From positions 1-28,336 of IMG/VR virus record IMGVR_UViG_3300035698_010138: DNA of 28,336 nucleotides; one strand, written 5' to 3'. This stretch comes from a virus. This document shows, piece after piece, positions 9,833 through 28,336 of this stretch. A program made the position numbers and the translations under genes. Every line of letters starts with the position of its first letter. Positions within the stretch are counted from its first letter, which is position 1. The notes under the pieces are model-generated. The model searched no databases and was not told the DNA's origin. It saw only the letters and a program-made list of their open reading frames with translations.

Positions 9833-10030
9833 ATGGAAGAATTACTATTAGCATATTGGCCTGCCGGTGTTTTTGTACTGCCAGTTATCGGAGCCATATG
9901 GGTCGGGTTCAAAAAATACGCAAAATATTCTAAAACAGAAGTGGATGATGAGATAGTTGAAGCGGTGGAAAAAGATCCTATCGGGAAACGTGTATCTGCA
10001 TATTTCCAATATAAATCACCGCTTAAATAG
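9833..10030 (+). CDS. Small one-span membrane protein, holin candidate
   Basis: 65 residues from the ATG at 9833, one base after the endolysin stop. Residues 3-26 are hydrophobic (LLLAYWPAGVFVLPVIGAIWVGF) and are followed by a charged soluble tail (KKYAKYSKTEVDDEIVEAVEKD). Size, single membrane span and position next to the endolysin suggest a holin or pinholin, but it lacks any family signature that I recognise. An in-frame upstream start at 9779 would overlap the endolysin and is not needed. Confidence 0.6.
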   Translation: MEELLLAYWPAGVFVLPVIGAIWVGFKKYAKYSKTEVDDEIVEAVEKDPIGKRVSAYFQYKSPLK

Positions 10031-10034
10031 AATG

Positions 10035-10114
10035 AACGGCCTGAGATTCGTCGGTCAATAATAAGCTGAGAGCATCATATACTTAAATCATCGACATGAA
10101 ATCCGGGCCGTTTT
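10035..10114 (+). terminator. Possible terminator at the end of the late genes
   Basis: AACGGCC (10035-10041) pairs with GGCCGTT (10106-10112), followed by TTTTA. The loop of 64 bases is long for an intrinsic terminator and contains further weak pairing. It lies directly after the last late gene and before the convergent integrase. Confidence 0.4.
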
Positions 10115-10127
10115 ACTATAGTGGCAA

Positions 10128-10148
10128 ATCAACAGAATACCTGTTGAT
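10128..10148. repeat. Perfect inverted repeat near the integrase 3' end
   Basis: ATCAACAG, 5-base spacer AATAC, CTGTTGAT: eight perfect base pairs. It lies about 100 bases from the integrase stop, where attP often sits, and is a candidate for core-type integrase sites. The rest of 10115-10245 shows nothing else and no tRNA-like segment. Confidence 0.45.
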
Positions 10149-10245
10149 GTATAAAGGAATGATCCCAAACAAAAACCAACCTATGTAAATATATCTTTCT
10201 CTTCCACCGTAATGTTTTTTGCGCCATGTTCTTTTGATTATCATT

Positions 10246-12237: not shown

Positions 12238-12927
12238 TCAAGTTATTTCTTCTTCATCATCCACTTCCACAACTTGACAGATCCTTGCCGGGACTACTCC
12301 GTTCCTAGAATACTCCGTGATCTCGTCCATTGTCATAGAATTGAAATGATCAGCCATGTTAATATTATTAATCTGTGTATTGTGTACAGATTTATCCGTG
12401 AGATACAAGTCTTGTTTTGATTTAGTCAACGGCTCAGTAAAAGCGTTTCCATGCCGTTTACCCATTTTGTTGAATGTTTCCAGTGATTTTACAATTGCAC
12501 TTGCCAGTTTTGGTTCTGAAATTGTGCCGTCCCAAATTGAAATGATCGCTTCAGTTAAAACCGGTAACTCGTCGGCTAACTTCCTGAACATCCAGTCTTG
12601 CCTAGAGTTGATCAATTCGGCCGTCAATTCACCCCACCACTCTTTATGCATTAGTTTACGTACTCCACTAACTGACATTCCAGCCAATACAGCCGTTTCT
12701 GAGATATTGCCTTGACCAGTAGAGCAGAATATTTCAAAGACCTGCCATTGTTTATAGGTGACTTTCTGTCCTTTGACTGTGACCTTGATACTTTTATCCT
12801 TCGCAGTCAAAGCATTTTGATATTCCTTTATGGTTTCACCTATTTTCGTCTTGTGGTCTGTCGATTTATCCGACGTTATTCTCGGATCTCCAGGTCTGAA
12901 TAAGTGATCCTTCTTTTTCTTTGCCAT
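12238..12927 (-). CDS. Terminase small subunit-like HTH protein
   Basis: 229 residues. The Lys-rich N-terminus is followed by TYKQWQVFEIFCSTGQGNISETAVLAGMSVSGVRKLMH (read in parts), a helix-turn-helix arrangement like the DNA-binding domain of TerS proteins. Then come long helices for oligomerisation (about 95-160) and an acidic tail ending in DDEEEIT. In headful or cos phages TerS recognises the packaging site and feeds TerL. No TerL lies downstream, and the structural genes in this window run the other way, so the packaging role is uncertain; a plain regulator is the alternative. It overlaps the preceding gene by 62 bases. Confidence 0.5.
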   Translation of the reverse strand: MAKKKKDHLFRPGDPRITSDKSTDHKTKIGETIKEYQNALTAKDKSIKVTVKGQKVTYKQWQVFEIFCSTGQGNISETAVLAGMSVSGVRKLMHKEWWGELTAELINSRQDWMFRKLADELPVLTEAIISIWDGTISEPKLASAIVKSLETFNKMGKRHGNAFTEPLTKSKQDLYLTDKSVHNTQINNINMADHFNSMTMDEITEYSRNGVVPARICQVVEVDDEEEIT

Positions 12928-18479: not shown

Positions 18480-18665
18480 TCATGGTTTATGTTGAATATC
18501 AAGTGTATTCCAGACTCTTACGAGAGCAGCGATGTTTTCCAGGTCTTCGACATCATCTTCCATTATAGCGCATTCTTCTTCACCTATTTTGATCCTCTTA
18601 AAGTATTCTCCTTTGAATTCATCTTTAAGGGATTTAATTATCCAGTCGAGCCAGTCCGTTCTCAT
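18480..18665 (-). CDS. 61-residue acidic protein
   Basis: AAGGAGAAGAG stands before the ATG, which overlaps the previous stop (ATGA), so translation is coupled. It reads MRTDWLDWIIKSLKDEFKGE, then IGEEECAIMEDDVEDLENIA. Mostly helical and acidic. Function unknown. Confidence 0.65.
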   Translation of the reverse strand: MRTDWLDWIIKSLKDEFKGEYFKRIKIGEEECAIMEDDVEDLENIAALVRVWNTLDIQHKP

Positions 18666-18949
18666 CTCTTCTCCTTTTCCATTACAATACCAAACACTAT
18701 ATTTCTATCTGATTCGCTGAGGTCGTCAAACTCATGAAATATTGAGATAACTCTGTTTAATCTATCTATATTAAACCTGTTAATTGCGGCTTCTAACGCA
18801 GCGGCTTGAACGGCTACCGGTTGAATTGCTCGTTTTGCCTTTTCCATTTTCTTCAGGAATTCAGGCATATCCTTCTCAAACTCTCTGGCCAATAATACCG
18901 ATCTTTTAATATCTGACAATGTTTCCTTTAAGTCTTTTAGCCTTCCCAT
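18662..18949 (-). CDS. 95-residue helical protein
   Basis: The ATG at 18949 is preceded by AAAGGAGAAGAG and is preferred. An in-frame ATG at 19009 preceded by AAAGGCAAC would add 20 residues (MVSVGVTSPFVQVAALKGEE), so two products are possible. The main part is long helices (LKDLKETLSDIKRSVLLARE, FLKKMEKAKRAIQPVAVQAA). It is the first gene after the long structured leader at 18950-19287. Function unknown. Confidence 0.6.
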   Translation of the reverse strand: MGRLKDLKETLSDIKRSVLLAREFEKDMPEFLKKMEKAKRAIQPVAVQAAALEAAINRFNIDRLNRVISIFHEFDDLSESDRNIVFGIVMEKEKR

Positions 18950-19287
18950 CTCTTCTCCTTTAAGAGCCGCAACTTGAACGAATGGTGATGTCACACCCAC
19001 TGAAACCATGTTGCCTTTATGGGCTTCCCATTACGGGAAAAGTTGGTTTCTCTGAGGGCCGTTTATCCTCGTTTCTGCCGTGGGACTTCACGCCAAGTTG
19101 CGACCGCTTGTTAAATGTGGCTGGCCGGATTCGATACCGGCAATATTTTAACTAATGCGCTCTAACGGACAACGCATCGGCGTATACTTACCTACCTCAC
19201 ATGGAATTATTCTATGAGTATTGGTCGCTTTCGCCACAGCCACACTTTTGTGATTTCATTTTGGATTTAGAGTATGTACATCATTTT
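18950..19287 (-). ncRNA. 338-nt structured leader with a tRNA-like element
   Basis: No good gene lies here on either strand. In the minus-sense transcript there is a 129-nt element (19244-19116) closed by a perfect 8-bp helix, TGTGGCTG with CAGCCACA. The 3' strand of that helix directly follows, without gap, a hairpin GCCGG-TATCGAAT-CCGGC (19141-19124), as acceptor and T arms meet in tRNA. Inside are hairpins GATGCG...CGCATT, CTCA...TGAG and a GAAA tetraloop (GCGAAAGC). Downstream are more hairpins: CGTG/CACG (19079-19092), GAGG/CCTC (19054-19070) and TTCCC/GGGAA (19025-19039). The T-like loop has eight bases and there is no normal anticodon arm, so it is not an ordinary tRNA. Confidence 0.55.
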
Positions 19288-19614
19288 CTATGCCATAACT
19301 CCCAACTTTATATGATTAACACTTTTAACTCCTGAATTAAATGCGTTAATCATATCGCCTCGGTTAAATAATTCCTGGCTTCGATATTCTTCATCAAGCC
19401 ATTCATTAGACTGTTCTTTGATCTCTTCCAACCAGGCAGAAGGGATTCTTAAATCGACCCCATTATTCCCGTCGATAATAGCCCAAGGTGCTTTATTCCC
19501 ATGATAGGTCATATCAAATTCATGTCCGTTCATAGAATTAGCGACTGAGATATTATCGCAGAGAAGTATGTCTTTCATTTTGAGGTCTTCTGGAATTTTG
19601 ATTCTGTATTTCAC
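19288..19614 (-). CDS. 108-residue hypothetical protein
   Basis: A GTG start at 19614 is fixed by a perfect AAGGAGG seven bases upstream. The protein reads MKYRIKIPEDLKMKDILLCD, then FDMTYHGNKAPWAIIDGNNG and an acidic helix (SAWLEEIKEQSNEWLDEEY). It is soluble with mixed fold and no motif that I know. It is the last gene before the structured leader. Confidence 0.65.
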   Translation of the reverse strand: MKYRIKIPEDLKMKDILLCDNISVANSMNGHEFDMTYHGNKAPWAIIDGNNGVDLRIPSAWLEEIKEQSNEWLDEEYRSQELFNRGDMINAFNSGVKSVNHIKLGVMA

Positions 19615-28159: not shown

Positions 28160-28336
28160 TTATTTAGACCGACCATGACCGTGACCATGACCGTGACCCT
28201 GACCCTGACCATGTCCATGACCGTGACCATGACCGTGACCCTGACCGTGACCCTGACCGTGACCATGACCGTGGCCCTGACCCTGACCATGACCGTGACC
28301 ATGACCGTGACCATGACCGTGACCATGACCGTGACC
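28160..28336 (-). CDS. Gly-His/Gln repeat protein, 5' end cut by window
   Basis: The minus-strand frame runs in from the right edge and stops with TAA at 28160-28162, 23 bases before the ERF start. All 58 visible residues are Gly-His or Gly-Gln dipeptides (about 27 of them), then Gly-Arg-Ser-Lys. His is the alternate residue in most units, Gln in six. This could bind metal ions strongly. No stop or frameshift interrupts it. The plus-strand frames are also open but have no start with a ribosome site. The N-terminal part is outside the window, so the family is unknown. Confidence 0.55.
   Translation of the reverse strand, partial: GHGHGHGHGHGHGHGHGQGQGHGHGHGQGHGQGHGHGHGHGHGQGQGHGHGHGHGRSK
28172..28336. 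repeat. 12-bp tandem repeat array (GACCAT-GACCGT)
   Basis: About 27 hexamers of the form GACC(A/C/G)T on the plus strand, mostly in the 12-base unit GACCATGACCGT with GACCCT variants. It reaches the right edge of the window and may continue. On the minus strand it codes for Gly-His/Gln. Confidence 0.9.

Follow-up and report, generated by a model that had tools for sequence, protein, structure and literature searches.

Phage T4 makes a stable RNA, RNA C, that has been known for a long time without being assigned a function. This RNA (rnaC, the 'species 1' stable RNA) has been detected by Northern blot, with no known function (PMC9697503). Among other described RNAs of related form, the YrlA Y RNAs (RF02553) are tRNA mimics of 90-150 nt with D-, T- and acceptor-like arms and no anticodon (PMC8394870), and GOLLD and ROOL are phage RNAs of unknown function that often lie near tRNA islands, with tRNAs sometimes found inside GOLLD (PMC12286853). 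RNase P is able to cleave model substrates consisting of an acceptor stem plus a T arm, as well as two phage RNAs (PMC11143913).

We analyzed the whole of a 28-kb virus record, IMGVR_UViG_3300035698_010138 of IMG/VR (28,336 nt, here called the window). On its minus strand, an otherwise tightly packed operon contains a gap of 338 nt running from a stop codon that ends at 19288 to the start codon at 18949, in which an initial annotation had described a tRNA-like element of 129 nt closed by a perfect 8-bp helix. Both the element and its helix were recovered in our analysis, and the features of the locus, in the direction of transcription, are as follows:

19288 to 19614, minus strand: upstream gene of 108 aa, function unassigned, weak match to phrog_37628
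19116 to 19244, minus strand: tRNA-like domain of 129 nt, a four-way junction with a perfect 8-bp closing helix (folding z = -5.77; constrained fold)
19237 to 19243, minus strand: 5' strand (GTGGCTG) of an acceptor-like 7-bp helix, paired with 19117-19123
19179 to 19235, minus strand: D-position arm, stem GGCG/CGCC, with a large insertion that has its own hairpin (fold and constrained fold)
19154 to 19178, minus strand: anticodon-position hairpin of 8 bp with a 9-nt loop (fold)
19142 to 19153, minus strand: linker of 12 nt at the variable-region position, with a terminal U as at tRNA position 48
19124 to 19141, minus strand: T-arm-like hairpin GCCGG-UAUCGAAU-CCGGC with an 8-nt loop, an exact 18-mer found in 22 viral contigs
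19117 to 19123, minus strand: 3' strand (CAGCCAC) of the acceptor-like helix, adjoining the T arm with zero gap
18958 to 19115, minus strand: second structured domain (z = -3.15), reaching the ribosome-binding site
18662 to 18949, minus strand: downstream gene of 95 aa, function unassigned, with the Shine-Dalgarno sequence AAAGGAG just past the second domain

The region 19250-19110 (minus strand) folds at -50.0 kcal/mol compared with a shuffle mean of -30.9 (z = -5.77, none of 200 shuffles as good), and the entire 338-nt gap at z = -4.3; the boundaries of the 129-nt domain were picked with the closing helix already in view. When 1200 segments of 140 nt were scored on a blind grid, four besides the element had z <= -5.9; folding energy by itself therefore does not settle the case, and it is the relatives that decide whether the element is real. 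These segments, at 10012-10151 (plus strand) and near 12738, 14289 and 22373, fold better relative to shuffles than the element itself, and the first lies in a convergent gap adjoining an integrase gene. On energy grounds, then, the element could be a chance folding of an intergenic stretch like a few others in the record. Elsewhere in the window, positions 28171-28336 at the contig end are a low-complexity tandem repeat of GACCRTGACC units, and positions 17-458 hold three 135-base direct repeats, each encoding one 45-residue repeat unit of what is probably a virion protein.

In the closing helix, 19244-19237 (TGTGGCTG) is perfectly paired with 19123-19116 (CAGCCACA), extending to 11 bp in the minimum-energy fold, and is followed around the junction by an unpaired U, the D-position stem, the 8-bp hairpin, the 12-nt linker and the 5-bp T stem. 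The T-arm loop reads UAUCGAAU (TATCGAAT in the hairpin 19141-19124) with position 19123 directly next to it, bearing out at 19123/19124 the gapless contact between closing helix and T-arm-like hairpin that had been claimed. Assuming a 7-bp acceptor and a 3-bp D stem (GCG/CGC), the linkers measure 2, 1, 12 and 0 nt as in tRNA, and a U occupies the equivalents of tRNA positions 8 and 48. The further hairpins of the initial annotation are placed as it described, but its judgement that they do not form a cloverleaf does not hold, since a four-way junction with tRNA-like linkers amounts to a cloverleaf with an enlarged D arm. At the anticodon position the element carries the 9-nt loop GUCCGUUAG, and no 7-nt anticodon loop occurs in the 129-nt domain. 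The element has neither the 7-nt anticodon and T loops of a tRNA nor a match to tRNA models: ARAGORN found no tRNA or tmRNA in the window, and searches of the window and of the relatives described below against Rfam, at gathering and at permissive thresholds, matched no family.

The additional hairpins that had been noted up to the next start codon correspond to the second domain (19115-18958), which combines a long closing helix (CGCAACTTG/CAAGTTGCG) with several hairpins and has no T-loop motif; it may be a second, degenerate element. For the downstream gene, Pfam and PHROG gave no match.

The exact T arm (GCCGGTATCGAATCCGGC) has 22 matches in viral contigs, and at 16 of the 19 distinct viral sites it directly abuts an acceptor helix (counted when pairing with the upstream strand scores >= 7) whose sequence differs nearly each time, although one relative, L020, has an acceptor identical to that of the window copy. 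Because acceptor sequences vary freely among relatives and pairing alone is kept, the proposed resemblance to tRNA-His is unsupported. In bacterial genomes the same 18-mer has 95 matches, mostly inside genes, of which about 7 reach a helix score of 7 and two (L030 and L078) look real. T-arm variants in which the two outer stem positions carry different G/C letters had no acceptor helices. With an exact T arm and abutting acceptor helix recurring across unrelated viral contigs, we regard chance folding as negligible. A T-arm match in Streptomyces phage Anedea was dropped as having no clear acceptor. L004 and L021 have, just 3' of the element, a second sequence resembling a tRNA, whose anticodon arm is expanded and whose last part is the T arm GCAGG-TTCAAAT-CCTGT.

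Variation of the T loop in the search led to a hairpin shared directly after the acceptor, GCGUG-GANGGA-CACGC, with a covarying stem. A scan with this D-arm motif gave at least 134 distinct sites, and at least 113 elements have the GANGGA loop. The acceptor plus T-stem pattern is present in 81% of 109 D-arm sites (those with enough sequence among the matches listed) versus 1.7% of shuffles. Where the T arm was picked by structure alone, its loop is 8 nt long in 81 of 90 listed sites, and in these a U stands at the equivalent of tRNA U55 in 78, a C at that of C56 in 79 and an A at that of A58 in all 81, giving a conserved UCRA motif for the class. When T arm and acceptor were fixed instead, GANGGA appeared at the D position in 25 of 34 sites. 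The joint conservation of the two loops is therefore not circular, as in each case sites were selected by one motif and the other was left free to vary. Read by established tRNA structure, the invariant GG and UC suggest a contact between D loop and T loop as in the tRNA elbow. All 17 core pairs of the class alignment show changes on both sides, a table in which complete pairing is a product of selection and the variety of pair types is not.

These are the compensatory base changes whose absence would have spoken against the element, and they hold for the class and not for the window copy, because no orthologue at the window's locus was found: phages showed no DNA similarity to the locus, and viral contigs gave no relatives via the upstream protein or the primase, the latter having its best matches (about 36% identical) in Pseudomonas phages. 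Shared acceptor, T arm, loop nucleotides and covariation among relatives argue for the tRNA mimic that the initial annotation had offered as one possibility. Another, a new class of phage non-coding RNA, agrees with the at least 113 uncatalogued relatives, for which Rfam has no family; a search of open-access literature gave no matching description. A D-arm match in Desulfovibrio phage 7757 was dropped after reading of its sequence showed neither T arm nor acceptor, the D-arm probe found no copy in E. coli genomes, and copy counts per record from a degenerate D-arm pattern were excluded as the pattern missed known copies.

Acceptors in the class range from 7 to 16 bp and, unlike those of tRNA, are seldom followed by an encoded CCA. 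Around a hypervariable interior of 43-210 nt between the D and T arms, the outer tRNA-like shell is conserved. Some phage pairs have a common interior and different flanks, and L321 and L405 have common flanks and closing helix with unrelated interiors. These two belong to a subgroup (L399, L349, L369, L358 and L354; L405, L321 and L361) whose closing helix is 16 bp long (ACCATCATCRAAGCGG-like) and whose interiors are exchanged, which suggests modular replacement. A canonical T-arm hairpin of their own is present in 3 of 115 interiors, versus 0.05% of shuffles; a T-arm hairpin or tRNA-like fold is nested in the interiors of L258, L206, L420 (Iodobacter phage PhiPLPE) and L421 (Pseudanabaena phage Pan3).

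A conserved shell around a hypervariable interior, with the unrelated interiors of L321 and L405 between common flanks, is what might be seen if the RNA were a decoy or inhibitor occupying a host or defence protein that recognizes elbow and acceptor of tRNA (such as a tRNA-cutting enzyme, a modification enzyme or PNPase), with the interior tuning the target. Y RNAs are a precedent, being tRNA mimics that bind PNPase (PMC8394870). Anticodon nucleases, however, are unlikely targets given that the element has no anticodon loop; we consider this role rather improbable, and it is compatible with the reading that we prefer below, not exclusive of it.

How the window copy itself relates to the class can be judged from its arms. 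Its closing helix has at least 7 bp and directly abuts the T arm, and its 8-nt T loop (UAUCGAAU) contains UCRA. Its D loop is not GANGGA and the base before its T arm is U instead of A, so it is a looser, tRNA-type relative and groups with L002, L007, L014, L017 and L019. Perhaps, with chances just short of even, there is a large, unnamed class of phage RNA in which a tRNA-like shell releases and protects a swappable interior, the window copy being a divergent member and T4 RNA C an isolated example; some interiors would then hold a second tRNA-like hairpin.

Genomic contexts bear on whether the element acts in cis. A ribosome-binding site and a gene lie closely 3' of the window copy, an arrangement that also fits a cis role. 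Serving RNase P as a cut site or the gene as a protective structure at the 5' end, the fold would then divide the mRNA upstream from the gene at 18949 and set expression of that gene, without any RNA acting in trans. The element is flanked by co-directional genes, the Shine-Dalgarno sequence comes directly after the second domain, and in several class-B relatives a Shine-Dalgarno sequence and ATG follow at short distance. Among 68 informative relatives (sites with both neighbours predicted by a rough gene caller, for which 32 of 114 elements fall within predicted genes), 37 sit between co-directional genes; the upstream gene is co-directional in 53, of which the other 16 precede a convergent gene. 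The genes next to the elements vary (terminase, portal, HNH and hypothetical genes are among them), none being a constant partner, and the relatives do not share the conserved downstream gene family of a riboswitch or leader. One copy (L319) occupies the interval that separates tRNA-Leu from tRNA-Lys in a cluster of 19 tRNAs, the Komagataeibacter phages phiKX1 and phiKX2 have a copy after tRNA-Met and before a terminator-like hairpin, and L233 has three tandem copies. By a strict rule almost no terminators were found after elements, so that those mentioned are single cases read by eye. Contexts of these three kinds (tRNA clusters, before a terminator, in tandem) are typical of stable RNA genes. 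Because of the varied, unrelated neighbours, tRNA clusters and convergent genes, the riboswitch-like leader proposed for the gene at 18949 is disfavoured as a general role, and a cis function for the element appears unlikely to us, if still worth keeping in mind, above all as a purely local leader in this phage.

The occurrence of some class-B relatives inside tRNA clusters, along with the tRNA-type linkers and the U at positions 8 and 48, would also be in keeping with a former phage tRNA gene that lost its anticodon and is drifting. Decay would break stems, however, and here all are intact in an unusually stable fold and covary across the class, making a decaying gene very improbable.

On balance, we think it somewhat probable that the element is a phage tRNA mimic without an anticodon, which the host's enzymes of tRNA maturation set free as a stable RNA. 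As part of the minus-strand operon transcript, the RNA would fold into the acceptor helix, D-position arm, anticodon-position hairpin and T arm, its D and T sides probably docking as in the tRNA elbow. RNase P would most likely cut the 5' side near 19244, with 3' trimming after 19116, to yield a stable RNA of roughly 130 nt that would, like T4 RNA C, consist of a tRNA-like shell with a variable interior. Since RNase P cuts acceptor-plus-T-arm models and phage RNAs, such processing is plausible, as is RNase P as the partner suggested in the initial annotation. This proposal draws on observed structure, class-level covariation, conserved loop nucleotides and genomic contexts, while docking at the elbow, processing, stability and any role in the cell are what we infer for the element.

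Cultured phages of five lineages carry unannotated copies: Acidovorax phage AP1, Caulobacter phage DMCA, Iodobacter phage PhiPLPE, Pseudanabaena phage Pan3 and the Komagataeibacter phages. With more than 100 well-formed relatives, including those in cultured phages of Caulobacter, Acidovorax, Iodobacter, Pseudanabaena and Komagataeibacter, the question of function raised by T4 RNA C can be tested in laboratory phages. Annotation based on tRNA finding and Rfam overlooks a common kind of viral RNA.

Compared with known systems, the element differs from the YrlA RNAs, which have a long basal stem that binds Rsr, in arm order: the phage YrlA copies that we read are permuted (T arm, acceptor hairpin, D arm), whereas the acceptor ends of the element are open, its D arm comes first and its T arm last. 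That it might nevertheless be a YrlA-type Y RNA tethering a Ro60-like protein gains something from YrlA-like RNAs in three records with relatives, two of them with a Ro60-like TROVE protein whose gene the RNA adjoins. Yet TROVE was found in only 3 of 138 records tested and nowhere in the window (a record that may be a fragment), and the element was not matched by RF02553 even at E values up to 10, a permissive threshold. Given the permuted arm order and the rarity of TROVE, we do not file the element under YrlA and see this identity as highly improbable. The TROVE proteins are those of L412 726-2078 (record G005, which also contains L174) and of L414 (record G120, which also contains L002), both with a YrlA-like RNA just upstream of their genes, and the G005 protein has the DVSGSMN motif typical of a vWA domain. 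L143/L415 combines, within a few hundred bases, a GANGGA element with a tRNA-Glu and a YrlA-like RNA (57.7 bits, under the 69-bit cut-off).

Like the element, tmRNA joins an acceptor and a T arm around a long insertion, but ARAGORN and Rfam find no tmRNA in the window and acceptor sequences are not conserved in the class. RNase P also processes two phage RNAs that are not tRNAs, phage M3 RNA and the C4 antisense RNA of P1 and P7 (PMC11143913); the element matches no Rfam family. GOLLD and ROOL, unlike the element, are several hundred nt long, form multimeric cages and have no Rfam match here. The closest known RNA is T4 RNA C, and the window element has each of its arms: an acceptor, a D-position arm, a non-anticodon hairpin and an abutting T arm. 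T4 RNA C, whose sequence we read, differs in its canonical 7-nt T loop, in a 7-position acceptor helix with two U-U mismatches and in its place at the end of a tRNA cluster, with no sequence similarity to the element shown. The topology is the same, as in both phage-encoded RNAs, which are similar in length (139 nt in T4), an acceptor-like helix abuts the T arm, a long arm occupies the D position and a hairpin stands at the anticodon position, in T4 RNA C one of 10 bp with a 6-nt non-anticodon loop.
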